From: Candidatus Eisenbacteria bacterium
Lineage (GTDB): Bacteria > Eisenbacteria > RBG-16-71-46 > JAFGJU01
Length of the DNA stretch: 64,000 nucleotides
Assembly: GCA_026388185.1 (NCBI GenBank)
Contig: JAPLKG010000014.1
Span: 277,537 to 341,536 of the forward strand
Reading direction: 5' to 3'
A model generated the notes under the pieces. That model did not search any database. It saw only the letters and a program-made list of their open reading frames with translations, and was not told the DNA's origin. A program made the translations under genes and the position numbers. The stretch's first letter is position 1. Each line of letters starts with the position of its first letter. Positions 5,948 to 63,864 of the stretch are shown here, piece after piece.

Positions 5948-6601
5948 ATGAATTCTCTTGCAAGGTTCTTGAGACACAGTTTCCTCGCGGGGATCCTCGT
6001 GATAGTCCCTCTGGGCGTGACCTATCTCATCCTGAAACTGGTGTTCAATGCCGTTGACAACATCCTGGCCCCATACATCGAACGGCTTATCGGACTTGAC
6101 ATTCCAGGGCTCGGCGTTGCCGCTACGATAGTGCTGGTGTTTCTGGCGGGGCTGGTTGCGACAAACGTTCTTGGGAAGACGCTGCTCAACTATTTTCACA
6201 GGGGTGTGTCAAAGATTCCCGTGGTGGGTAGTGTGTACGTTTCCGCAAAGCAGGTGATAGAGGCTCTCGGCACGGCCGACACACAGTCTTTCAAGAGGGT
6301 AGTGTTCATTGAGTATCCTAGGAATGGACTTCTAATGATGGGTTTTGTTACCAGGGAGCACTACGCGGTCATTGACAAACAAGGAAACAAAACCGAGGTA
6401 ATAAACGTCTTTCTTCCGACCACCCCAAACCCAACAACGGGCTTTCTCGTTGTATGTAGGTCGTCGGACGCCATAAGGGCAGGCATCACCGTGGAGCAGG
6501 GAATAAAGCTGGTCGTTTCCGGGGGTATAGTTGCGCCCCCAGAGCCACTCATGGTCGAGAGCACCGAAGCGCTGCTGAGAGAGAACGAAACGTCCGCGTG
6601 A
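5948..6601 (+). CDS. DUF502 family membrane protein
   Basis: The 217-residue product has two N-terminal transmembrane segments (FLAGILVIVPLGVTYLILKL and GVAATIVLVFLAGLVATNVL) followed by a soluble C-terminal domain. The family blocks KIPVVGSVYVSAKQV, RNGLLMMGFVT, VFLPTTPNPTTGFLVV and VVSGGIVAPP identify DUF502, the bacterial relatives of the plant LIKE-COV proteins. No biochemical function is established. It is 37 bp after the TIGR02757 gene and probably co-transcribed with it. Length and domain layout are normal for the family. Confidence 0.9.
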   Translation: MNSLARFLRHSFLAGILVIVPLGVTYLILKLVFNAVDNILAPYIERLIGLDIPGLGVAATIVLVFLAGLVATNVLGKTLLNYFHRGVSKIPVVGSVYVSAKQVIEALGTADTQSFKRVVFIEYPRNGLLMMGFVTREHYAVIDKQGNKTEVINVFLPTTPNPTTGFLVVCRSSDAIRAGITVEQGIKLVVSGGIVAPPEPLMVESTEALLRENETSA

Positions 6602-6697
6602 CGCTACGACCACGTTCCCGCTGATAGCCGCCGCTGATTGGGTCGCGCGACGCCGCACCGCGCTTCCCTGCGACCCGCCCCCAAGCTTTGAATCGCC

Positions 6698-7738
6698 CTA
6701 CTTTTTTTCTGCCGGCCGCTCTGCCGCCAGTTCCGAAAGTATCTTCTCGTATCTCGGGTCAGACCTCACGTTGTTGAGGTCTGAGTCCGTGCGAGCCAAA
6801 GAACCCAATTTGGGGCTGAGTCTCAAAGCTATTTCCAGTTCCTTGAGGCTATTGTCAGCGTCACCGGCCAGCGACAAGAAGCAGGCGAGGTCGTAGTGCG
6901 CGTCGCCGTAGTCTGGTCTATATTCTACTGCTTTCCTGGCTGCTTCCACTGCTTCCTTGTACTTGCCTTGACCGTAAAGAGCGCTAGCTTCGTTCAGTCT
7001 TGACATGGCATGTTGAATCTTGAGAAGCCTGCCCAGTTCCTTAATCGGTTCGGAGTTATCGTCTACTCTCAGGTCAATATAGCGGTCGTTGAATCCTGCA
7101 TATCCGCCGCTATCTCTGACCACAAAGAGCGCGGCAGATTGCTGACCCCTTGAGTCTCCACCGGCGGACTGTCCGGCTTCGAGCGCGGCCAGGAGTCTGT
7201 CGGCCAGCTCACCTTTCGCTTTCTCGAATGCCTCGCCCATTGCCGCCACAACCTGCTCGCTGACAAGTATGTTTCCCTGCGCCGAGTAGTGCGTACCGGT
7301 TTTCCCGCCGGCCCAGGGATTGCAGCCCTTTCCGGTGTACGTGGCCGCGTTTCCCTCTGCGTCCACAATACCAACCTGACGCCTGTCTCTTCCTTCGTCC
7401 GCGGACGTGAGTGCTTCAATGACTTCGGCCGGAGTTTTTCCGCTTGCCAGGAGCTCAAGGCCTTTCGGACCGTAAGTGGTGTTACCAAACGCCTGCGTGG
7501 CGATTGCACCGACACCGGCCTTGGCCCACGGCACAACGGAGCCGACCGCGAAAAACTTGGACTCTACCGCCACGCCCAGGTCCTTCGTCTCCGGGTCGTA
7601 GGCTACGATGGAAAACGTAGCCACGGGTACCTGATGAAAGGGAGGCGCAGGCAGAATGGCCGGCGCCATCGCAGGAGCCAGAACGGCCACAATTGCAGAG
7701 ACCAAGACCAAGAGTGTGAAAAGTGAACAGCGTGACAT
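6698..7738 (-). CDS. Secreted DUF1028 (Ntn-hydrolase-like) protein with TPR tail
   Basis: I placed the start at ATG 7738 because GGAGGGAGG sits just upstream; an in-frame start at 7816 lacks this. The 346-residue product has a signal peptide (SLFTLLVLVSAIVAVLAP). It then has the DUF1028 signature starting at VATFSIVAYDPETKDLGVAV, with WAKAGVGAIATQAFGNTTYG and GCNPWAGG, characteristic of this Ntn-hydrolase-fold family. The last 100 residues contain TPR-like repeats (ASALYGQGKYKEAVEAARKA, DAHYDLACFLSLAGDADNSL). The substrate is unknown; related proteins occur near peptidases and amidohydrolases. Expression would start from the promoter at 7807-7835. Confidence 0.85.
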   Translation of the reverse strand: MSRCSLFTLLVLVSAIVAVLAPAMAPAILPAPPFHQVPVATFSIVAYDPETKDLGVAVESKFFAVGSVVPWAKAGVGAIATQAFGNTTYGPKGLELLASGKTPAEVIEALTSADEGRDRRQVGIVDAEGNAATYTGKGCNPWAGGKTGTHYSAQGNILVSEQVVAAMGEAFEKAKGELADRLLAALEAGQSAGGDSRGQQSAALFVVRDSGGYAGFNDRYIDLRVDDNSEPIKELGRLLKIQHAMSRLNEASALYGQGKYKEAVEAARKAVEYRPDYGDAHYDLACFLSLAGDADNSLKELEIALRLSPKLGSLARTDSDLNNVRSDPRYEKILSELAAERPAEKK

Positions 7739-48243: not shown

Positions 48244-48320
48244 TGGTGGCGGTGCAGGGATTCGAACCCCGGACACAAGGATTATGATTCCTCTGCTCTG
48301 ACCAACTGAGCTACACCGCC
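48244..48320 (-). tRNA. tRNA-Met (anticodon CAU), CCA encoded
   Basis: The minus strand folds into a full cloverleaf. Acceptor GGCGGTG pairs with CACCGCC, and the D-arm is GCTCAGTTGGTCAGAGC. The anticodon arm is GAGGA-ATCATAA-TCCTT, and the T-arm contains GGTTCGAATCC. The ACCA end is encoded. The anticodon is CAU. The GGCGGTGTAGCTC start resembles elongator tRNA-Met, but a lysidine-modified tRNA-Ile cannot be ruled out by eye, and tilS is next to it. Confidence 0.92.
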
Positions 48321-53193: not shown

Positions 53194-53260
53194 CCTCGCA
53201 GCGTGTCTTCTTAACGCCTGTGCGCGCTCGGGCAGAGGGAGGCGATAGTGCCGCATGACG

Positions 53261-53416
53261 TTTTTCCAAATGGCCAGGTTTATTTGCTAGTCGCACTTCC
53301 AAATAACACGGCTAATATCGGAAGCCAGGTACAAGTGCTGAGGGATGGGTGGGCTTGTGTCCCGGGTGAGGTAAGACACTGGGTACCGCAGGTTCGAGTC
53401 CTAGCTGGGGAGCCAC
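53261..53416 (+). repeat. 156-bp repeat, copy A, with T-arm-like end
   Basis: Nearly the same sequence occurs at 56230-56385 (roughly 85-90% identity by eye, same length). It contains the duplicated start TTCCAAATAAC-type, the dyad GTGTC/GACAC, and ends GGTTCGAGTCC with TGGGGAGCCAC, like the T-arm and 3' end of a tRNA. No full cloverleaf can be drawn because no CTCCCCA acceptor half is present. The 5' edge also holds the end of the 53194-53489 gap, which has no gene. Confidence 0.7.
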
Positions 53417-53489
53417 AACTCTTCCGTATTCCGCAGCCCAAACGCCTAAACCTCAAGTACCCGTCGTTGGACCCGGCCGTACAGCAAGT

Positions 53490-53972
53490 CTACTCTTCTA
53501 GCAGATTCCCGAATCTCAACTGTCTTTGAGGGGCTTTCGCCTTGATAAGGCTGGAGACTTTCTCAACGAACTTCTCGGCCACCGCGATAGAATGAGTCGC
53601 TTCTTTCAGCGAACAAGGTATGCCGGGTTCATAGATGAACCTGTGACGTTTTCGCCTCATGAAATCATAATCGTTCACAAGTTTCCTAAACTCATCTCCT
53701 AAAACCGAACCCGCAAATCTCACTATTGTCAAGTGCTTGTTCTTGATTTCCGGTCTGAACCCCTCGCTGAACATCAAACCCAATCCCATTCTCAACATGG
53801 CATTGTAAGCATAGTTGTAGGCACATTCCGGATCCTCTCGTAGGTTTCTCTTCGCAGTTCTCAGATCAGTGCGGGCGCGCTTGATCAGCTTGGCTACCGC
53901 CCTTTGGTCTACAGGACACCTCTTGATCAATCCGTCCTTTTCAAGGGGTTTCTCGGAATGTCTAGAGCTCAT
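53490..53972 (-). CDS. HEPN-domain toxin, copy 1
   Basis: The 160-residue helical protein has the HEPN block DLRTAKRNLREDPECAYNYAYNAMLRMGLGL and the catalytic-type Arg/His segment MRRKRHRFIYEP. HEPN proteins paired with MNT partners are ribonuclease-type toxins. Its ATG lies 11 bp inside the end of the upstream nucleotidyltransferase gene, the usual antitoxin-first order. A second copy with about nine substitutions is at 60483-60965. Confidence 0.85.
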   Translation of the reverse strand: MSSRHSEKPLEKDGLIKRCPVDQRAVAKLIKRARTDLRTAKRNLREDPECAYNYAYNAMLRMGLGLMFSEGFRPEIKNKHLTIVRFAGSVLGDEFRKLVNDYDFMRRKRHRFIYEPGIPCSLKEATHSIAVAEKFVEKVSSLIKAKAPQRQLRFGNLLEE

Positions 53973-54537
53973 CCTCTTTTCCCACCAACATTATCTTTGG
54001 AGCCGTCAAGACCTCTTCGATGAAACCGCTCGCGACTCTTTTCTTCGCCCGGTATTCTTGCAGAGAGTAGATCGTCGGGTTGATTTCTCTCCGGAGTTTT
54101 TTCTCCAATCCCGCAATCTTCTCGTTCAACACGGAGATGTCGGGACGCCCGATTATCATTAGATCGATGTCGCTGGTCGCTTTTTCTCGACCCGAAGCGA
54201 ATGATCCATAAATGAAGGCCAGCCTTATGTCCTTGAAAGACGATAACGTTTTTCTTACTGCCCCTTCAACACCAACAGTCTTAGAGACTATGGCCTTCAG
54301 TTCCTTGAATAGGGGATGTCCAGTATTCAGAGAGTAGTAGAGCAGGTTTCCGACTCTGTGAGTGACGAATAGGTTATCCCTCTGAAATCTTAAGAGCTCT
54401 CTTCTTATGCTGCCCGCGGAGTAACCCAGGATGCGCTCAAGTTGTCGCAGATAGTATTTCTGGGATGGATTGCTGAAGAAAAGGGACAGCAAGCCCTGTC
54501 TGATTCTTGACTTCGTTACATATAGCGCTTCCAACAT
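53962..54537 (-). CDS. MNT nucleotidyltransferase antitoxin with winged-helix N-terminus, copy 1
   Basis: ATG 54537 follows AAGGAG, giving 191 residues. Residues 1-75 form a winged helix (YYLRQLERILGYSAGSIRREL). The nucleotidyltransferase motif is FIYGSFASGREKATSDIDLMIIG, the G-S-x10-D-x-D of MNT. In related pairs the MNT protein AMPylates or neutralises the HEPN toxin, and the helix-turn-helix would bind the operator palindrome just upstream. It overlaps the HEPN gene by 11 bp. Confidence 0.87.
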   Translation of the reverse strand: MLEALYVTKSRIRQGLLSLFFSNPSQKYYLRQLERILGYSAGSIRRELLRFQRDNLFVTHRVGNLLYYSLNTGHPLFKELKAIVSKTVGVEGAVRKTLSSFKDIRLAFIYGSFASGREKATSDIDLMIIGRPDISVLNEKIAGLEKKLRREINPTIYSLQEYRAKKRVASGFIEEVLTAPKIMLVGKEDEL

Positions 54538-54552
54538 CGTTGAACTCCTTCT

Positions 54553-54589
54553 TGAGTACAATTGTACTCAGTATTGGATACAGCGGCAA
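54553..54589 (-). promoter_or_regulatory. Promoter and 18-bp palindromic operator of MNT-HEPN copy 1
   Basis: TGAGTACAATTGTACTCA (54553-54570) is a perfect palindrome. It contains the -10 TACAAT; TTGCCG lies 17 nt further upstream on the minus strand (54589-54584). Binding by the MNT winged helix would repress its own operon. The same palindrome is kept in copy 2. Confidence 0.7.
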
Positions 54590-54599
54590 GTCTTATCTG

Positions 54600-54872
54600 A
54601 ACCCAACCTTTGTACCGAAGTGGACTGTGCGACGAGCGTCTGAGGGTGGCATTCCAGATTGCACCACTGCCTGGTACTCGGAAGCTGCGGTGAGCCCTTC
54701 TGGCAATCAAGGCTGGACGACAGTTCTGGCACGATCCGGCCAGGAAGACAGTCTGAAGGTGAACCTATCCAGTCGTCACACACTCTCGCTGGCGTTCGTT
54801 GTGCCCGCGCTTAGTGCTCCAGTCCGTGTAGACAACCCGGAAGTGAAGGGCGACTTCAAGGCTCTCTTCTAG
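54600..54872 (+). pseudogene. Gene remnant beside MNT-HEPN copy 1
   Basis: A plus-strand frame reads NPTFVPKWTVRRASEGG, PDCTTAWYSEAAVSPSGNQG and ends VKGDFKALF at a stop. It has no plausible start, since the frame runs into the operator region. The second copy has a two-base deletion (at 61716-61717) and several changes, so neither is under coding constraint now. It looks like the 3' end of a broken gene carried along with the module. Confidence 0.45.
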
Positions 54873-54928
54873 GGTTCGAATACTGGCACATTTGGGGAGG
54901 CACACCCTCCTGCTGTGCTGCACAATGC

Positions 54929-56086
54929 TCACCGCTGCAGAGCCGTCACAAGACCGGAAAGGCTGACGAACCGAACCTCCATGTCACCATACTTCCTGTG
55001 GTAGCTGCGGGTCACGTCGTTAGCCACGACATAGTTTGAACCGGTCGGATATTGTCTCCGAAATGCCTGAAGATTCTTGGGGTCGAACGCGCCTGCCGAC
55101 CATTTGCATTCGATGGCCACCGGAGCCCTTCCTCGCACCGAGTGTACGAAATCCACCTCGTGTCCTCGTTTGTCACGCCAGTACCGAACTGTCCTCACCT
55201 GAAGAATGCTCTGAATCTCGTTCAGCACGTAGTGCTCCCAGAGCTGTCCCATGTCCTCTTCACGCAATTCTGTCCACCCGCGGTGGTAACATACGAAGCC
55301 AGTGTCGAAGCCGTAGACCTTCGGGGCCGCCACGATTTCGGTAGACTTGTGTCTTGTGAAGGGGCGAACTACGTGGGTGATAAACGTGGCTTCAAGCACG
55401 GCGAGATAATTGGAAATCGTCGTCCGGCTGATCTCGCAGGAGCGTGCGAACCTCGTCGCCTCGAATATGCTCCCACTTTGCGCGAGAAGAAGCTCCACAA
55501 ATCGCTGAAACGAGGCTCTCCTCTCTAAGCGAAACAACTCCTGAATGTCCTTCGCCCAGTATGCATCAATCCATTCCTGGAAATCTCGATCCGGAGTATT
55601 CGTGGCAAGAAAGAACGGGGGGAGTCCGCCGTAGAGGAAGCGGTGGCTGAGATCCACGTTCTTGAAGTCCACGAGATCGTGGCTGTTCATCGGCGTAAGC
55701 CAAAGATCCCTTTTCCGACCCGCCAGTGTGTCCTTGAACCTTGCCGACGCCCCGAGCGTGGATGACCCCGTGGCAAGGACTCGAGTCTTCAGGAAGTGGT
55801 CTGCCGCGATCTTGAGCAACTCGGAAGGATTCGAAAGGCGGTGAATCTCATCGAGCACAATTCTCCGGCCTACGAGGTCTTTCAGGAAACCTTCAGGATC
55901 CTCCATCAGACGCCGCGTACGGGGAAGCTCACAGTCGAAGTACTCGACTTTGTCCAATGACTTACTCAGGAAGGTCTTGCCTACACGTCTAGCTCCAGAA
56001 AGCCAGACTACCGGCTTTTCCTTCCAGGCAGATTCAACCAAATCTATCCAGAAAGACCTTCGTACCATACGCAACCATTGTTGCAC
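54929..56086 (-). CDS. AAA ATPase with DUF4143 nuclease-like C-terminus
   Basis: The 385-residue product has Walker A LSGARRVGKTFLSKSL, Walker B RIVLDEIHRL and the sensor segment VLATGSSTLGASARF of the AAA_14 family. The C-terminal DUF4143 domain includes a winged helix (SCEISRTTISNYLAVLEATF) and a PD-(D/E)xK-like site (GHEVDFVHSV, VAIECKW). Such proteins are widespread in accessory regions, and their targets are unknown. It forms the second unit of the island between two junction motifs. GTG 56086 or ATG 56068 could be the start. Confidence 0.88.
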   Translation of the reverse strand: MQQWLRMVRRSFWIDLVESAWKEKPVVWLSGARRVGKTFLSKSLDKVEYFDCELPRTRRLMEDPEGFLKDLVGRRIVLDEIHRLSNPSELLKIAADHFLKTRVLATGSSTLGASARFKDTLAGRKRDLWLTPMNSHDLVDFKNVDLSHRFLYGGLPPFFLATNTPDRDFQEWIDAYWAKDIQELFRLERRASFQRFVELLLAQSGSIFEATRFARSCEISRTTISNYLAVLEATFITHVVRPFTRHKSTEIVAAPKVYGFDTGFVCYHRGWTELREEDMGQLWEHYVLNEIQSILQVRTVRYWRDKRGHEVDFVHSVRGRAPVAIECKWSAGAFDPKNLQAFRRQYPTGSNYVVANDVTRSYHRKYGDMEVRFVSLSGLVTALQR

Positions 56087-56229
56087 ATGGTGCTACCAAA
56101 TGCAAGATCAAAAGCACAGTCGAAGGCACGCCTTATTGAGTGGTGGCTAAGATACTCGGGCAGGAGTGTGAAAATGACCTGCTTGCCCACGTTCCGGGCG
56201 GGTCCAGACAGCACTCCGTTCAGACGTCG

Positions 56230-56385
56230 ATTTTCCAAATAACCAGGTTTATTTGCTAGTCGTGCTTCCAAATAACACGGCTAATATCGGAAATCAGACA
56301 CAAATGTTGAGGAATGGGTGGGCTTGTGTCGCGGGTGAAGCAAGACACTGGGTACCGTCGGTTCGAGTCCTATCTGGGGAGGCAC
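56230..56385 (+). repeat. 156-bp repeat, copy B, with T-arm-like end
   Basis: Direct repeat of 53261-53416. This copy has a clean hairpin CAAATAA-CCAGGT-TTATTTG near its start and ends GGTTCGAGTCC with CTGGGGAGGCAC. The two copies bracket the MNT-HEPN and DUF4143 units. No gene can be supported in the following stretch, 56386-56678. Confidence 0.7.
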
Positions 56386-56678
56386 TCGGTGCTCCAAGGT
56401 TGCCCTACTTCCTGCGCAGAGGATTTTGGCGTTCTCCAGCGAGAGCGCCTGTTCTCTTTTGGCAGGACTAAGACGAGCCGATGGACAGAGACCGGGTATT
56501 GCTCTGGTTTAGTATCAAGGGCTGAGTTTTTTCTCTTGGCCTCTACGTGCGGTCGTGCTCACTGCATCCTTGCCCTACCCCTCGGGCTCCGGAATTTGAT
56601 GGCAATGGCACGAAACTCAATGGGATGCTGCCGCTGATCGCACGCATTGATACTCGTCACAATGATCTTTAGGCTGGG

Positions 56679-57098
56679 CTAGTCCGCATCTACCAGATGG
56701 TCTCGAATGAACTTCTCCGCAGCCGCAACGACGTGATCTTTGACTCCCGATGGACTCTGTGCCAGCCAGACTGTGAAATTGTAAAGTTCTTGGGTATCCG
56801 CCTTCAGCCACTTACCATTACCAGCTAGAAATGTGAGCAAGGTGGTTACTGCGATCCTCTTGTTGCCGTTCTGGAAGGGGTGGTTCTTGATCATCAGATA
56901 GAAAAGAACACTAGCCTTGCCCACTAGTGTTGGGTACAGGGCCTTGCCTGAAAAACTCTGAAACGGAGTCACAACGCAGCTTTCAAGTCTGTTTGCAAAT
57001 CGCGTAGAGAAATCAGGTATTGGCTCGTCGAAGGAGAGGTGTTCTTTAGCGAGTCGAAAGGCAAGGTATTCCACGTCGGCTATAGTTATGATTCTCAC
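56679..57098 (-). CDS. doc: Fic/Doc-family toxin
   Basis: The 139-residue protein has the Fic core HPFQNGNKRIAV, with catalytic His and the phosphate-binding GNKR, in the small Doc layout (ITIADVEYLAFRLAKEHLSF at the start). Doc toxins phosphorylate EF-Tu and stop translation. It overlaps the upstream HTH antitoxin gene by one base. HPFQNGNKR has Asn where Doc often has Asp/His, still within family range. Confidence 0.88.
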   Translation of the reverse strand: MRIITIADVEYLAFRLAKEHLSFDEPIPDFSTRFANRLESCVVTPFQSFSGKALYPTLVGKASVLFYLMIKNHPFQNGNKRIAVTTLLTFLAGNGKWLKADTQELYNFTVWLAQSPSGVKDHVVAAAEKFIRDHLVDAD

Positions 57099-57355
57099 TA
57101 TTCCCTGCTTAAGTTCTTCAGGACTTCGCCATATTCCAGAACTGTTCTACGAACAGCTGCATCTATTCGCTTCTTTCCCTTTCCTGATGTCTTCTTGCCG
57201 AGGACATCTGTGAGAGTACGGTCTGTAATGACGTACGTTTTGCCGATCTTCATAGCACGGATCTGCCCTTTTCTGACCCGGTTGTAAATGGCAATGCGAC
57301 TGACTCCGATAAGCTTGGCAAGTTCGGGTATAGTGAAGTATTTTTCCTTAGCCAT
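57098..57355 (-). CDS. HTH-domain antitoxin of the Doc toxin
   Basis: The 85-residue protein is an excisionase/MerR-like helix-turn-helix (YFTIPELAKLIGVSRIAIYN, followed by KIGKTYVITDRTLTDVLG) with a basic tail and a C-terminal helix that could cover the toxin. It is not a Phd homolog by sequence. AGGTGAGG precedes the ATG. It should bind the GTTAAC array at 57379-57442 and control the pair. Confidence 0.8.
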   Translation of the reverse strand: MAKEKYFTIPELAKLIGVSRIAIYNRVRKGQIRAMKIGKTYVITDRTLTDVLGKKTSGKGKKRIDAAVRRTVLEYGEVLKNLSRE

Positions 57356-57378
57356 GGTTCCTCACCTGAAGTTAGAAG

Positions 57379-57442
57379 GTTAACTTGACATCCACAGGTT
57401 AACATAAGTTAATCAAGCGAACAACAGTTAACATGAGTTAAC
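57379..57442 (-). promoter_or_regulatory. Phased GTTAAC operator array of the Doc module
   Basis: GTTAAC occurs at 57379, 57398, 57427 and 57437, and GTTAAT at 57408. The spacings are 19, 10, 29 split as 19 after the 57408 site, and 10, close to one and two helical turns. The array covers the promoter zone before the antitoxin gene. Confidence 0.65.
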
Positions 57443-57636
57443 GTGAGCAAATTGATCAGTAACAAACAGATATCCTAACGTCTTGTCAAATAGTCAAGTT
57501 AGTGGATAATCCTGGAAAAGCCTTACTTTAGGAAGCTGGCGAGTATATCTCTCCCGGAAGCGACTCCTTTGTGGTACAATTCTCTTTCCAGTGAGGCCTT
57601 CGTTTTCTCAGAAAGGTATTTTATCCACAGATCAGA

Positions 57637-57670
57637 TACCAATAGATGGTATATATACCATCTATTGGTA
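57637..57670 (+). promoter_or_regulatory. 34-bp perfect palindrome before the AbiEi-like gene
   Basis: The left arm TACCAATAGATGGTATA is followed directly by its exact reverse complement. It ends five bases before the chosen ATG at 57676, so a bound regulator would block initiation. Confidence 0.8.
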
Positions 57671-57675
57671 GACAA

Positions 57676-58572
57676 ATGGGCTCTATGAAGATGCTAACCA
57701 AGAAACATCATCTCGAAATCAAGACCTACTTCGATAGCGTGGATGCAAGAATATACACCCAGAAAGACATCCGACAAATCCTCGCAAGCAAACGGATTCT
57801 ATGGCAACTGCCTGGAAAAATAGGCGTGGCTGAATTCCTGGACCATCTCATTAAGAATTCGGAACTCAAGAAAATCGTTCTCAATTCTCCAGATTATGAT
57901 AAGAAATACATCCGCTATGCATGGAGGGAGATATCTGCATATCAGCTAAGTCTCTCTTTGAGACCACATTCCTATTTATCTCACCGCTCCGCAATGTACT
58001 TGAATAATCTGACTGAACTGCCTTCCAGGATCATATACGTTAACTCCGAACAAACCCCAAAACCTCGACATGAAACCAGCCTTGAACAGAGATTGATCGA
58101 CTTAGCCTTCAAATCTGAGCCCAGAACCTCAAAGTATGTTTTCAAGCATAAGAATTGGCGGATATGCTGTTTGAGCGGATTGAATACAGATAATTTGGGA
58201 GTAGTGGAAATCCAGGCACCCACTCAGGGCAGATTGCAGGTCACTGGCATTGAGAGAACCTTGATCGATATAGCCGTCAGACCTTTTTATTCTGGCGGGA
58301 CAGGTGAAGTCCTCAAGGCTTATATGAAGGCAATAGGGAAAATTGACACTGACCGACTGATTTCAATTCTGAGGAAGATCGAATACATTTATCCGTACCA
58401 TCAGGTAATAGGTTTCTATTTGCAGGGGGCAGGTTTTCAGAATTCTTCCTTGAATTCGTTTAAAGAAATGGGACTCAAACATGATTTCTATCTTGACTAT
58501 GGTATGCAGGAAAAAGACTACTCCAAAGAGTGGAGAGTTTACTTTCCCAAAGATCTTATGACTGCGCGTTAG
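57676..58572 (+). CDS. AbiEi-like antitoxin/regulator, orphan
   Basis: The 298-residue product resembles AbiEi antitoxins of type IV toxin-antitoxin systems. A helix-turn-helix region near the start (IYTQKDIRQILASKRILWQLP) is followed by SYLSHRSAMYLNNLTELP and a C-terminal domain with LQVTGIERTLIDIAVRPFYSGG. The nucleotidyltransferase toxin AbiEii, normally downstream, is absent: 58573-59001 has no frame. The gene is visibly more AT-rich than its neighbours, suggesting transfer. I chose ATG 57676 because an earlier ATG lies within the palindrome. Confidence 0.75.
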   Translation: MGSMKMLTKKHHLEIKTYFDSVDARIYTQKDIRQILASKRILWQLPGKIGVAEFLDHLIKNSELKKIVLNSPDYDKKYIRYAWREISAYQLSLSLRPHSYLSHRSAMYLNNLTELPSRIIYVNSEQTPKPRHETSLEQRLIDLAFKSEPRTSKYVFKHKNWRICCLSGLNTDNLGVVEIQAPTQGRLQVTGIERTLIDIAVRPFYSGGTGEVLKAYMKAIGKIDTDRLISILRKIEYIYPYHQVIGFYLQGAGFQNSSLNSFKEMGLKHDFYLDYGMQEKDYSKEWRVYFPKDLMTAR

Positions 58573-59001
58573 TTCATTGTCCGGATATCCACCAAGCCCG
58601 AGCTGATCCAATATGATAATAAGGTTCTAATCAAGCGCGAGGCACTTCTCTTCCATCAGTTAGCAAGGCGCCTTCTTGGTAGGTGACAAACTTAGGCGTC
58701 AGGACACGGTCTCATCATCTCTTGGTCGAGGGGCACTTGCTTCTGTCTGAACCGTGGTCTGTGAGAAGGTCGGTTGCATGCGCCTGTTGCGCCGACTAAC
58801 GACTGTCAATGGCGATTTAATCTTACCCAGAAGTGGCGAAGTAAAAGTGTACCACCTATACGGCGTGCGCTGATCAGGCGAGTACGGATCTTGCCTCCTG
58901 TCTTGGGTCATAGGTGTAGTTCTTAACCAAACCTATAGTAGACCTCTCACAGGAGGTTTTTCATAAGTATCTAACATCGTCCAGCGAGGGGAGGCAACGA
59001 G
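58573..59001. other. Non-coding stretch
   Basis: No gene can be supported. A small hairpin CCTC-TCACAG-GAGG followed by TTTTT lies near 58947-58965 and could end plus-strand transcription. Confidence 0.4.
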
Positions 59002-60156
59002 CTATCTGAAAAGCGCCTTGATCTTGCCCCAGGTGGTGGGCAGTACAGATGTGGGACCGCAGCCGACACCCAAGGCGCCTACCTGTCCACAACCAGGATG
59101 ATTTGCGCAGGGCGAGGTACAGTTGATGTGGTAGTCCCCAGCAGCAGGATCACAAAAGAGAGGGTTTGCCGAGAAATCTTCAGACACCGACGTGCACGTA
59201 TAGTAGTTTCCACGGCTGTTGTTCCATACGTCATTGCAGTGCAGTGTGGGTGACGATGAATGGGGCTGGGCGCAATCTATCCCGTACCATTCACTGCCAA
59301 TCACGATATTGTTCTCCAGAAGTGGCGAGGCAGAATCAAGGGCAATGCCGACCTGGTTGTTGACTATCGTGTTACTATGCACAGTTGGCGATGAATAGCT
59401 TATGTAGACACCATAACCCGTTCCGTCTACGATCAGATTCTCGTAGACTTCTGCCTGTGATGAAGCCCTGCACGAAACGCCGCCTGAACCATCCCTCATG
59501 ATATTCCTGCGTACAACCGGAGAGCTACCTTGACAGGCAACCGCCATATCCTCGTTCCCGATGAACTCGTTGTTCTCAATGACAGCCTGCGAAGTCAGAC
59601 AATAAATCCCAGATCCATCAACGCTGCCGTACTCTGGCCATCCGCCCGTGTTGTTGCTTATTGTATTGCCGGAAACATATAGAACCGAAGCAGCATCAGC
59701 GGCTATGCCGCCCCCGGAGTTGTCCGTAATGACGTTGTCAATGATCTGAACATCTGAAGATTCACAGAAGATCCCACTCCCGGCATTGTTGGGCCAGTAA
59801 TACCCAGAATACTGACCGTTGGTTATCGTAAGCCCTCGTATTACACCCGTGGCCGGAACATTGGTGCAATGGATAGCTCTGTGAAAGTCCCCGCCATGAA
59901 TGCTGGTAACCGCGGTACCTTGTTCGCTAATTAGGGCGATGTTCTTTCCAGATATGGTCAAGGGCCCATAGTAATAGGGCTCATAGTAATCACCCGGACC
60001 GACAAGGACTGTGTCGCCTGCAGCAGCAGAATCGATGCACGCCTGAATGGTCGTGCAATCCCCACTTCCATCCTGCCTCACAAGCCACGTGCGGGCGTCA
60101 GAGGCAACGGGGATGAGCAAGAGAAGAGAGAACAGAAGGAGGATGATAGCTCTCAT
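59002..60156 (-). CDS. Secreted right-handed beta-helix protein with WG-x-IKA C-terminus
   Basis: The 384-residue product has a signal peptide (RAIILLLFSLLLLIPVASDA) and a parallel beta-helix body. It begins WLVRQDGSGDCTTIQACIDSAAAGDTVLVGPG, the pectate-lyase/NosD-like entry, with rungs such as VIENNEFIGNEDMAVAC and PTVHSNTIVNNQVGIAL. A cysteine-rich cap (CNDVWNN to CGPTSVLP) follows. It ends TTWGKIKALFR, like the protein at 39283-39996. No catalytic residues are recognisable, so binding or lyase activity is open. The 245 bp upstream to 60401 show no gene. Confidence 0.85.
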   Translation of the reverse strand: MRAIILLLFSLLLLIPVASDARTWLVRQDGSGDCTTIQACIDSAAAGDTVLVGPGDYYEPYYYGPLTISGKNIALISEQGTAVTSIHGGDFHRAIHCTNVPATGVIRGLTITNGQYSGYYWPNNAGSGIFCESSDVQIIDNVITDNSGGGIAADAASVLYVSGNTISNNTGGWPEYGSVDGSGIYCLTSQAVIENNEFIGNEDMAVACQGSSPVVRRNIMRDGSGGVSCRASSQAEVYENLIVDGTGYGVYISYSSPTVHSNTIVNNQVGIALDSASPLLENNIVIGSEWYGIDCAQPHSSSPTLHCNDVWNNSRGNYYTCTSVSEDFSANPLFCDPAAGDYHINCTSPCANHPGCGQVGALGVGCGPTSVLPTTWGKIKALFR

Positions 60157-60482
60157 ATCGCTTTCGACCTCGCTTTCTGCCTGTCACAGACGAGCTCAGG
60201 GAAAACAAGAGGAAAGAGATCTTGTAAGCTAATCAATACGAGGAACTGTCTAAGGTTAGACTATCACATCTTGCCGCTTCGCGCAATCCCTTTCGATAAC
60301 CCACCGAGAGCATGCAACCTGTTCTCAGTATGTGGGAAGGGAACACCTCGGGACCAGACGGCTCACATCCACTCTAATGGTTCGCAAATCGTACAACTTG
60401 AGGAGCCACAACTCTTCTGTATTCCGCAGCCCAAACGCCTCAACCTCAAGTCCCCGTCGTTGGACCCGGCCGTACAGCAAAT

Positions 60483-60965
60483 TCACTCTTCCAGCAGATT
60501 CCCGAATCTCGACTGTCTCTGAGGGGCTTTCGCTCTGATGAGGCTTGAGACTTTCTCAACGAACTCCTCGGCCACCGCGATAGAATGAGTCGCTTCTTTC
60601 AGCGAACAAGGTATGCCGGGTTCATAGATGAACCTGTGACGTTTTCGCCTCATGAAATCATAATCGTTCACAAGTTTCCTAGACTCGTCTCCTAGAATCG
60701 AACCCGCAAATCTCACTATTGTCAAGTGCTTGTCCTTGATTTCCGGTCTAAACCCGTCGCTGAACATCAGACCCAGTCCCATTCTCAACATGGCATTGTA
60801 AGCATAGTTGTAAGCACATTCCGGATCCTCTCGCAGGTTTCTCTTAGCAGTTCTCAGATCAGTGCGGGCGCGCTTCATTAGCTTGGCTACTGTCCTTTGG
60901 TCTACAGGACACCTCTTGATCAATCCGTCCTTTTCAAGGGGTTTCTCAGAATGTCTAGAGCTCAT
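60483..60965 (-). CDS. HEPN-domain toxin, copy 2
   Basis: 160 residues, the same as the copy at 53490-53972 apart from about nine substitutions (for example LIKRAR to LMKRAR, GSVLGDEF to GSILGDES). RRKRHRFIYEP is unchanged, so the active site is kept. It overlaps its MNT partner by 11 bp. Confidence 0.85.
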   Translation of the reverse strand: MSSRHSEKPLEKDGLIKRCPVDQRTVAKLMKRARTDLRTAKRNLREDPECAYNYAYNAMLRMGLGLMFSDGFRPEIKDKHLTIVRFAGSILGDESRKLVNDYDFMRRKRHRFIYEPGIPCSLKEATHSIAVAEEFVEKVSSLIRAKAPQRQSRFGNLLEE

Positions 60966-61530
60966 CCTCTTTCCCCACCAACATTATCTTTGGAGCGGTC
61001 AAGACCTCTTCGATGAAACCGCTCGCGACTCTTTTCTTCGCCCGGTATTCTTGCAGAGAGTAGATTGTTGGGTTGATTTCTCTCCGGAGTTTTTTCTCCA
61101 ATTCCGCAATCTTCTCGTTCAACACGGAGATGTTGGGATTCCCGATTATCATCAAATCGATGTCGCTGGTCGCTTTTTCTCGACCCGAAGCGAATGATCC
61201 ATAAATGAAGGCCAGCCTTATGTTCTTGAAAGATGATAACGTTTTTCTTGCTGCCCCTTCAACACCAACAGTCTTAGAGACTATGGCCTTCAGTTCCTTG
61301 AATAGGGGATGTCTAGTATCGAGAGAGTAGTAAAGCAGGCTTCCGACTCTGTGGGTGACGAATAAGTTATCCCTCTGAAATCTTAAGAGCTCTCTTCTTA
61401 TGTTGCCCGCAGAGTAACCCAGGATGCGCTCAAGCTGTCGCAGATAGTATCTCTGGGACGGATTGCTGAAGAAAATGGACAGCAAGTCTTGTCTAATTCT
61501 TGACTTCGTTATATATAGCGTTTCTAACAT
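60955..61530 (-). CDS. MNT nucleotidyltransferase antitoxin, copy 2
   Basis: 191 residues from ATG 61530. The GSFASGREKATSDIDLMIIG motif is identical to copy 1. About a dozen changes are spread over the chain, some in the winged helix (QRYYLRQLERILGYSAGNIR). Because both copies are intact, cross-neutralisation or divergence of specificity is possible. Confidence 0.87.
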   Translation of the reverse strand: MLETLYITKSRIRQDLLSIFFSNPSQRYYLRQLERILGYSAGNIRRELLRFQRDNLFVTHRVGSLLYYSLDTRHPLFKELKAIVSKTVGVEGAARKTLSSFKNIRLAFIYGSFASGREKATSDIDLMIIGNPNISVLNEKIAELEKKLRREINPTIYSLQEYRAKKRVASGFIEEVLTAPKIMLVGKEDEL

Positions 61531-61545
61531 CGTCGAACTCCTTTT

Positions 61546-61582
61546 TGAGTACAATTGTACTCAGTATTGGATACAGCGGCAA
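61546..61582 (-). promoter_or_regulatory. Promoter and 18-bp palindromic operator of MNT-HEPN copy 2
   Basis: The palindrome TGAGTACAATTGTACTCA (61546-61563) and the promoter elements TTGCCG and TACAAT are conserved exactly as in copy 1. Confidence 0.7.
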
Positions 61583-61592
61583 GTCTTATCTA

Positions 61593-61862
61593 ACCCCAGC
61601 CTTTGTACCGAAGTGGACTGTGCGACGAGCGTCCAAGGGCGGCATTCCAGATTGCACCACTGTCTGGTATTCGGAAGCCGCGGTGAGCCCTTCTGGCAAT
61701 CAAGGCTGGACGACATCTGGCACGATCCGGCCAGGAAGACAGTTTGGAGGCGAGTTTATCCAAGCAGCACACACTTTCGCTGGTACTCGATCCGGTGACG
61801 CCTGATGTCCCAGTTCGCATAGACGACTCGGAAGCACGGGGCAGATTCGCGAGTCTCTTCTG
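61593..61862 (+). pseudogene. Frameshifted gene remnant beside MNT-HEPN copy 2
   Basis: Corresponds to 54600-54872. It reads PAFVPKWTVRRASKGG and then shifts frame after GNQGWTT because two bases are missing near 61716. No start or function can be assigned. The stretch 61891-62070 holds no further gene. Confidence 0.45.
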
Positions 61863-62070
61863 CAGTTCGAATACTGGCACATCTGGGGAGCCTGCCGCGG
61901 CGACGGGGCCTGTTGCATCCACGCTCGCTCCTGTGACTACCGCCTCGGGCCACCAAAGCAAGAGGAGCCAGCGCTTGGCCAGTCCATCGGTTGTGCTTAG
62001 TCTCTTGCCCAATCAGCAAGAGCCTCTATCTTCGCACACAAAAATACACTTGGTTTGTGCGGTATCTCTA

Positions 62071-63789
62071 TCAGCGCGTCAGCACTATCTTCCGCGCTTC
62101 CTTATGACCCCCGAAGTTGAGCTGAACGAAATACACTCCCGCCGGAAGCTTCGTCCCACGCGCACCCTTTCCATCCCAGTTCACCATGTGCTGGCCAGCA
62201 TCCTCCTCACCATCTCTGAGAACCGCTACCTGCCTACCTGCCACGTCATAAACGACTAACCGCACATGCCCACGCTCTGGCAACGTGTACCCCAGGTGCG
62301 TCAATGCCTCAAACGGATTCGGCGCACCGCGACCGAGCAACAAGGCACCAGGAACTGCCCCTCCGCCTTCAACACCGACCACGGTTCCAGTCCGCACATC
62401 CGCCTCCGTCACACAGTTGTACGGCAACGAAAACCACGGGGAACGCGGGAAAAACGGCGAATCCGTCAACGTGCGAAGCCGCCAGTGATACATTATGTTT
62501 GACGTAAGACCAGTCACCACCTTGGAGAGACCCACCACGCTGCCGCCACCTCCAGGAATTCCCGTGTTGTACGCCGAACCCGTAACGAGCCCGCTACCGT
62601 TGAACGGCGTCCCCAGCGGCTTCACCTCGCACTGGAGCCGCACATTGCCACGACCTAAGGGGGTGCGACCCACGGCTTTCAAGAGGAAACCATCAGCCGA
62701 GCCGGACAGACCCAGTAGCGCGATAGGCGCCGAGTCGTCGGTTCGCGCCTGGCGGGCGATGCGATGGAGCCCATCACCTTCGTTCCCATAGTACACATAC
62801 GCACGCCCCTCACCCGTCTGACCGTTGCTGTGGCTTGGGGCGCCAACAATAACATCCGAGTAGCCATCCCCGTTCACATCCCCTGCAGTACCCACGGAAC
62901 GACCGAAGTCGGCACTTGCCTGGTCGCTCTGCGCTATCCAGCCTGCGGTCGCCGCAAGACCACCGGCAGACCCATGGTACACATACGCCTGGCCGTTGCT
63001 GTACTCATAGGCATAGGCGCCGACAATAACGTCCGAGTAGCCGTCCCCGTTCACATCCCCTGCAGTACCCACGGAACGACCGAAGTAGGCGCCTGCCTGG
63101 TCGCTCTCCGCAGTCCACCCAGCGCTCACCGCAAGACCACCGGCAGACCCGAGATACACAAAGGCACACCCCTCATACGCCTGGCCGTTGCTGTACTCAT
63201 AGGCGCCGACAATAACGTCCGAGTAGCCGTCCCCGTTCACATCCCCTGCCGTACCCACGGAATAACCGAAGGAGCCCCCGCTCACCGCAGTCCACCCAGC
63301 GCTCACCGCAAGACCACCGGCAGACCCGAGATACACAAAGGCGCGCCCGTAATTGGGCTGGCCGGCGGCGTAGTATGGGGCGCCGACAATAACGTCCGAG
63401 TAGCCGTCCCCGTTCACATCCCCTGCAGTACCCACGGAATAACCGAAGCATGCGTTTGCCTGGTCGCTCTCAGCTGTCCAAGCCGCGGTCGCCGCAAGAC
63501 CACCAGCAGACCCATAGTACACATACGCACGCCCCTCACGCGTCTGACCGTTGCTGTACTCATAGGCGCCGACAATAACGTCCGAGTAGCCGTCCCCGTT
63601 CACATCCCCTGCAGTACCCACGGAATGACCGAAGTCGGCACTTGCCTGGTCGCTCTCCGCAGTCCAGGCAGCGGTCGCCGCAAGACCACCGGCAGACCCG
63701 TGGTAAACATACGCACGACCCTCATTGGTCTGCCCGTTGGCGTAGTTTGGGGCGCCGACAATGACGTCCGAGTAGCCATCCCCGTTCAC
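62071..63789 (-). CDS. FG-GAP repeat surface protein, N-terminally truncated
   Basis: The 572 residues shown contain six FG-GAP (integrin-alpha-like) repeats with the calcium-binding loop DVNGDGYSDVIVGA, which fold into a beta-propeller. A linker domain (YHWRLRTLTDSPFFPRSPW) and an FlgD/type-9-like sorting domain (NPFEALTHLGYTLPERGHV to GVYFVQLNFGGHKEARKIVL) follow. In-frame coding continues upstream to 63864 (LSAAWTAESDQAIAYFGFSV) but hits a TAA with no start and no signal peptide. The 5' end is therefore missing, probably through a rearrangement. The GTG at 63789 is an arbitrary start inside a repeat. Confidence 0.75.
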   Translation of the reverse strand: MNGDGYSDVIVGAPNYANGQTNEGRAYVYHGSAGGLAATAAWTAESDQASADFGHSVGTAGDVNGDGYSDVIVGAYEYSNGQTREGRAYVYYGSAGGLAATAAWTAESDQANACFGYSVGTAGDVNGDGYSDVIVGAPYYAAGQPNYGRAFVYLGSAGGLAVSAGWTAVSGGSFGYSVGTAGDVNGDGYSDVIVGAYEYSNGQAYEGCAFVYLGSAGGLAVSAGWTAESDQAGAYFGRSVGTAGDVNGDGYSDVIVGAYAYEYSNGQAYVYHGSAGGLAATAGWIAQSDQASADFGRSVGTAGDVNGDGYSDVIVGAPSHSNGQTGEGRAYVYYGNEGDGLHRIARQARTDDSAPIALLGLSGSADGFLLKAVGRTPLGRGNVRLQCEVKPLGTPFNGSGLVTGSAYNTGIPGGGGSVVGLSKVVTGLTSNIMYHWRLRTLTDSPFFPRSPWFSLPYNCVTEADVRTGTVVGVEGGGAVPGALLLGRGAPNPFEALTHLGYTLPERGHVRLVVYDVAGRQVAVLRDGEEDAGQHMVNWDGKGARGTKLPAGVYFVQLNFGGHKEARKIVLTR

Positions 63790-63864
63790 ATCCCCTGCAG
63801 TACCTACGGAAAAACCGAAGTAGGCGATTGCCTGGTCGCTCTCCGCTGTCCAGGCAGCGCTCAG
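62800..63864 (-). repeat. 180-bp tandem repeats encoding FG-GAP units
   Basis: The segment ATCCCCTGC with the preceding GTCCCCGTTCAC recurs near 62870, 63050, 63230, 63410, 63600 and 63785. The spacing is close to 180 bp throughout, with one unit near 189. High identity between units suggests recent expansion or gene conversion. Confidence 0.8.

Follow-up and report, generated by a model that had tools for sequence, protein, structure and literature searches.

Organization of the island

The window analysed here is a 64-kb stretch of the draft genome of a Candidatus Eisenbacteria bacterium (genome G000, contig C14, positions 277537-341536), which comprises 2.6 Mb and is 98% complete. It contains an island of five gene cassettes, bounded by short junction sites of four types (Table 1). 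Type A is 22 bp long (GGTTCGAGTCCTAnCTGGGGAG), and types B (GGTTCGAATACTGGCACATnTGGGGAG), C (GGTTCGCAAATCGTACAACTTGAGGAG) and D (around AGTTCGAACATCGTCCAnCGAGGGGAG) each span 27 bp. A preliminary description of the window had listed five junctions, all of which are present as written, but the count rises to six with the type D site, which it had overlooked. The junctions were also said to mark the ends of both MNT-HEPN copies and of the DUF4143 unit, and these borders proved to be exact. Measured from just past one GGGGAG through the end of the next, the units are 1487, 1482, 2612, 1412 and 1485 bp long in order, in line with the earlier figure of about 1.49 kb for the first two. The 156-bp repeat was recovered at 53259-53416 and 56228-56385, with 88% identity.

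The cargo is mostly toxin-antitoxin or defence-like, together with some secreted repeat proteins. PADLOC matched the HEPN and MNT genes, the DUF4143 gene and Fic through its PDC models, which are taken to mean phage-defence candidates, and it also matched AbiEi. All cassette genes in the window are antisense to the sites, except AbiEi. The Fic part of cassette 3 has a 79% identical counterpart in a genome of the same family. A tRNA-Met gene (48244-48320) is the only tRNA within the window and no tyrosine integrase was found there, consistent with the earlier statement that the island has neither an intact tRNA nor an integrase gene. A search against Rfam gave no match at the junction sites.

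Table 1. Features of the island in the window and site clusters of the host genome. Positions are those of the window unless a contig is named.
Feature	Position	Strand	Evidence
Left arm of type A site (with the site, the 156-bp repeat)	53259..53390	+	115/130 identical to the copy in the 56228 region; 0/500 shuffles as good
Site A1, resembling a tRNA-Asn T-arm plus acceptor; left border of the array, past the core gene DUF4416	53391..53412	+	
Cassette 1: HEPN (53490-53972) and MNT (53962-54561) toxin-antitoxin pair; ends in site B1 (54873-54899)	53413..54899	-	Pfam HEPN, Polbeta/NTP_transf_2; PADLOC PDC-M05A/B
Cassette 2: AAA_14-DUF4143 ATPase (54929-56086); ends in site A2 (56360-56381)	54900..56381	-	Pfam; PADLOC PDC-S01
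Cassette 3: Fic (56679-57098, -), HTH_17 (57098-57355, -), AbiEi-like (57646-58572, +); ends in site D (58967-58993)	56382..58993	mixed	
Cassette 4: NosD/beta-helix secreted protein (59002-60156), C-terminal TTWGKIKALFR; ends in site C (60379-60405)	58994..60405	-	
Cassette 5: second HEPN (60483-60965) and MNT (60955-61554) pair; ends in site B2 (61864-61890)	60406..61890	-	
Right-hand arm after site B2	61891..61965	+	Recurs after A, B and D sites on other contigs
Site cluster on C4	C4:1466-8058		
Site cluster on C8	C8:47934-60063		
Site cluster on C14	Island of the window		
Site cluster on C20	C20:39994-44575		

In the whole host genome, the combined A/B pattern (GGTTCGAN{5,16}TGGGGAG) gave six matches and the C/D pattern seven, compared with none for either pattern when reversed. 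With looser patterns, nearly all sites fall into four clusters that together cover approximately 32 kb, and exact copies of the type C site occur on both C4 and C8. The single outlier is an A-like variant with two mismatches (C11:9788). All four clusters hold accessory genes, and the cargo of the sister clusters includes SIR2_2, TIR_2, AbiEii-like and PIN-TPR-GreABC proteins.

Cassette boundaries and interchangeable junctions

Cassettes 1 and 5 are 92% identical over 53406-54899 and 60399-61890. Their alignment starts inside GGAG and ends at the last G of GGGGAG, and the junctions on their left sides are of different types (A and C, respectively). To the right of site B2, an arm of approximately 60-75 bp recurs after a type A site (C4:4627), another type B site (C4:8058) and a type D site (C20:44575), on three contigs in all. 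The pairs of shared right arms aligned better than at least 499 of 500 shuffles. Left arms are alike within a type, with 115/130 identical positions for type A, 33/43 to 68/98 for type B and 65/78 for type C; the likeness is weak for type D, for which 13 of 500 shuffles were as good.

A cassette is also shared between families. In a genome of the same class but another family (G003), a copy of the DUF4143 cassette matches at 84% identity over 1196 bp, and the homology sets in 11 bp past a repeat of the tRNA-Asn 3′-end, compared with 12 bp past the type B site in the window. Modular insertion, as proposed in the preliminary description, is supported because the cassette boundaries are exact, the junctions are interchangeable and a cassette is common to two families.

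The sites could alternatively be static, that is, dispersed intergenic repeats or decayed tRNA copies, with the mosaic produced by ordinary homologous recombination. Several of the host's own copies are indeed degenerate, and a Verrucomicrobia genome (G061) carries approximately 30 copies inside longer interspersed repeats. Nevertheless, the break points coincide to the base between units with unrelated cargo and between sites of different types, the sites are tightly clustered, one arm is common to A, B and D sites, and the G003 copy breaks at nearly the same point. Static repeats are therefore an improbable explanation.

Relation of the sites to tRNA-Asn

The junction motif had been likened to a tRNA T-arm plus 3′ acceptor. 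This relation to a tRNA stands, and the tRNA is specifically tRNA-Asn, but the plain form is found only in type A, which equals the tRNA-Asn 3′-end. Types B, C and D are 27-bp, partner-like sites that resemble it in two blocks only, RGTTCG and GGGGAG(CCA). A decayed tRNA-Asn with a changed anticodon (att) was predicted by ARAGORN inside the site cluster on C8 (C8:60040-60113), and its 3′-end is a type A motif.

The same tRNA borders comparable units in relatives of the host. The repeat next to the DUF4143 cassette of G003 reads GCCGATTGGTTGCTGGTTCGAATCCAGCCCGGGGAGCCA, which is the 3′ part of tRNA-Asn; the repeat recurs 1738 bp further on (39 bp, 97%), with a Fic gene between the two copies. 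In another genome (G015), the order is an intact tRNA-Asn (C13:1360-1432), an MNT-HepT pair (1586-2276) and a 51-bp tRNA-Asn 3′ half that starts at 2304. No integrase was found in this element of approximately 920 bp, and genes for AbiEii, AbiEi, AlbA_2-like and DUF4143 proteins lie further downstream. An array begins at an intact tRNA gene in G015, as also in an Actinomycetota genome (G062, see below), but not in the window. The host's intact tRNA-Asn lies on C18, without an array. The tRNA-Met genes near the arrays of Latescibacterota were considered as a target and rejected, their 3′-ends not matching.

In a further member of the class (G009), a protein with a SIR2-like start (FLGAGASASGG; L156 9018-10769) is encoded within approximately 5 kb of the intact tRNA-Asn, as would be expected if tRNA-Asn were a defence hotspot.

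The 27-bp site in other phyla

A single scan of 84,980 genomes with the C/D pattern (RGTTCGNANATCGTNCANNNNGRGGAG) returned 19 public contigs, where about two were expected by chance according to the analyst's estimate. The records include Verrucomicrobia, Acidobacteria/Terriglobia, Zixibacteria, Latescibacterota, Actinomycetota, Desulfuromonadales and Elusimicrobiota, and some single matches, for example in Halococcus and Novosphingobium, may be due to chance. The pattern had no match in viral contigs. Between matches, the flanks of the site diverge on both sides. Relaxed searches in six of the genomes found 12, 8, 30, 5, 2 and 4 sites, and none in the reversed control; in several of these six, the sites form direct repeats in arrays. 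Among 47 class members, a genome of the host's own family (G002) contains two type D sites.

In the Actinomycetota genome, the intact tRNA-Asn is followed on its own strand by four 27-bp sites, two of which enclose a unit (6361 to 7283) that is essentially a HEPN-MNT pair. The sequence immediately past tRNA-Asn (...GGAGCCA) recurs past a 27-bp site in this genome, in G002 and in the Verrucomicrobia genome G061, and the match exceeded 500 shuffles in each case. The flanks are identical at 47/60 positions in G002 and 44/51 in G061, and in G002 none of 1500 random windows scored as high. The 27-bp motif is read as the element-side partner of a tRNA-Asn attachment site, retaining the T-loop-like RGTTCG and the acceptor-like GGGGAG.

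Candidate recombinases

No tyrosine integrase was found within the arrays at the site-bearing loci examined. Only one integrase was present in the scanned site-bearing loci, approximately 6 kb from the array of genome G060; a second match was one of the host's own integrases, on C11. The host has seven integrase matches, of which two are XerC/XerD-like (C2), one is of another type and four are paralogues.

These four paralogous tyrosine recombinases (L034 on C1, L035 on C11, L036 and L037 on C14), two of which share approximately 4 kb at 83% identity, stand beside a palindrome similar to loxP or dif, for example CCATAATCGGCATTATACGAAG. They seem to represent a mobile family of their own, and were rejected as the enzyme of the junction sites since they adjoin this palindrome and no A-D sites occur there. 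An integrase gene beside tRNA-Asn in G061 (L159 5262-6503), a genome with approximately 30 sites, was also rejected: it is without a detectable catalytic domain and lies less than 100 bp off on the 5′ side of the tRNA.

The XerC/XerD-like genes on C2 could be thought to act on the sites, in the manner of the pdif modules of Acinetobacter plasmids, in which toxin-antitoxin modules lie between 27-28-bp sites recombined by the host's XerC and XerD. Such Xer-flanked modules have been described in Acinetobacter (PMC12907356, PMC7399989), and the 27-bp site likewise has two arms and a 6-bp centre. However, the agreement with E. coli dif extends to only 11-15 of 28 positions, with 2-4 of 11 in the XerD arm, and type A is a 22-bp tRNA-Asn end. 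Recombination by Xer proteins is accordingly considered unlikely.

Highly improbable, and already disfavoured, is a divergent integron array without an integrase, that is, a cluster of attC sites lacking integron-integrases (CALIN), whose junctions would be attC sites recombined by IntI. The cassette-like arrangement, with one gene set per site and toxin-antitoxin cargo, is reminiscent of such an array, some Latescibacterota copies have co-varying inverted arms (GTTCGC/GCGAAC and GTTCTAA/TTAGAAC), and one array-bearing genome (G059) encodes a true IntI. Against this, RYYYAAC...GTTRRRY pairs are absent from the host's own arrays and from those of G059 and G003, and the single pair in G062 lies away from the sites. 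The host has no IntI match above the TIGR02249 cut-off, no site lies near the IntI gene of G059, and type A sites are tRNA-Asn 3′-ends. The host's own type C site also has no unusual fold (z 0.5); a general hairpin model, which fitted one Latescibacterota copy (z -2.7) and type B (z -2.4) well, was rejected because it fails for this type.

A Latescibacterota record (CP070631, L088 11737-12810) encodes an integron integrase with a strong match to TIGR02249 (432 bits), and no canonical attC pair was found in the 29 kb that flank it.

Probable accretion of cassettes at tRNA-Asn-type sites

We consider it likely that the island consists of five mobile gene cassettes in tandem, none with an integrase, and that a trans-acting recombinase added them one to another at sites of the tRNA-Asn type. 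A cassette would consist of one to three genes, mostly of toxin-antitoxin or phage-defence type, with an attachment site at one end. A site-specific recombinase supplied in trans, most likely a tRNA-type tyrosine integrase, would recombine the incoming cassette's site with either the tRNA-Asn 3′-end or a resident cassette's site, possibly through a circular intermediate, with strand exchange probably within or beside GGGGAG(CCA). Repeated events would stack the cassettes head to tail, and arrays would grow by accretion; protection from phages may be the benefit to the host. Action in trans is suggested because the arrays contain no integrase, and the class of the enzyme because of the nature of the site. 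The insertion at tRNA-derived sites by an element acting in trans that was put forward in the preliminary description is thereby largely supported, with the trans-acting recombinase itself a matter of inference.

Several observations weigh against accretion at tRNA-Asn. No recombinase for the sites was identified. Most arrays are not adjacent to tRNA-Asn, and the sequence that follows the host's intact tRNA-Asn on C18 matches none of the host's sites convincingly. The random-window background of the flank matches is less clean in G061 and G062, in which 2 of 1500 windows reach the observed score, although these matches gain weight because their register falls at GGAGCCA. In G061 and G059, moreover, the antisense orientation of genes to sites is not consistent, and the cargo often comprises large membrane, glycosyltransferase-like or secreted proteins; defence cargo is therefore not universal.

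More tentative, and in our judgement possible rather than probable, is the extension of cassette accretion across phyla. Integrase-less single-operon cassettes would carry the 27-bp site, which would pair with the tRNA-Asn 3′-end, and one dedicated recombinase would serve several phyla, as an integron analogue for defence genes.

Other features of the cassettes and their surroundings

Each of the two MNT genes has a perfect 18-bp palindrome (TGAGTACAATTGTACTCA) at its start (54553-54570 and 61546-61563), which is likely an operator for toxin-antitoxin autoregulation. GTTAAC boxes that recur ahead of the HTH-Fic operon (57375-57450) likewise form a likely operator region. The tail TTWGxIKxxF(R) is common to secreted proteins of beta-helix, NHL and similar kinds from at least two phyla (window 59002-60156; L015 5398; L016 9158; L097 in G004; L069 9199 and L070 8462 in G060) and may be a sorting signal; in several of these genes, the site motif lies just beyond the stop codon. 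Within the C4 cluster, one cassette holds group II intron fragments (RF01998, RF02001) on the minus strand, which lie between the NHL gene and the type A site (L015 4979-5255). An FG-GAP repeat gene with tandem units of 177 and 186 bp is found at the right edge of the island (62785-63823).

Comparison with described systems

Tandem islands bounded by tRNA or ssrA sequences are already known. The closest described systems are the ssrA islands of Dehalococcoides and the additive islands marked by tRNA-Lys. In Dehalococcoides, tandem islands are separated by 20-bp direct repeats of the ssrA 3′-end, with insertion in the T-loop; 16 carry a serine recombinase module (DsiB), while 15 are without an integration module and were suggested to be cis-mobilizable by accretion, and the cargo includes reductive dehalogenases (PMC3146451). 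The island resembles them in its tandem elements bounded by 3′-end repeats of an RNA gene. It differs in its tRNA-Asn-related sites, in its small units (0.9-2.6 kb), in that no integrase was found in any array, and in a 27-bp partner motif that occurs across phyla. As in tRNA-associated tandem islands, several tandem units are bounded at repeats, as seen in the alignment of cassettes 1 and 5, the shared arm and the G003 copy, and the borders correspond to a tRNA 3′-end, as seen in type A, the decayed tRNA-Asn on C8 and the tRNA-Asn 3′ halves of G003 and G015.

The additive flexible genomic islands of Methylopumilus contain recurring 20-mers of the tRNA-Lys 3′-end; they concern a different tRNA and one genus, their cargo is mostly of unknown function, and no separate partner motif is described in the available part of the source (PMC10872708). 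Tycheposons, as presented in the same source, are similar in being cargo elements at tRNA genes and are linked to tyrosine recombinases. They are 4-200 kb long, however, and the example given has a tyrosine recombinase gene inside, whereas the cassettes here are single operons, and no recombinase was found in the arrays examined. Integrons and CALINs also array small cassettes with one recombination site each; here, there are no attC R boxes, the genome has no IntI and the sites are related to tRNA-Asn. The array looks like an integron-like stacking of defence genes without a recombinase of its own. Within the literature covered, which takes in few subscription journals, the new part is the combination of tiny single-operon defence cassettes lacking an integrase with a partner site found across phyla.

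Defence and toxin-antitoxin genes cluster in islands, but the way in which single small systems arrive there can rarely be seen. In this array, the unit can be read off the sequence, as can its precise ends and the site at which it docks, and this site is short enough for searching. If the 27-bp site is indeed a general partner of tRNA-Asn, it would provide a sequence handle for defence cassettes in uncultured phyla, and for the recombinase that moves them.

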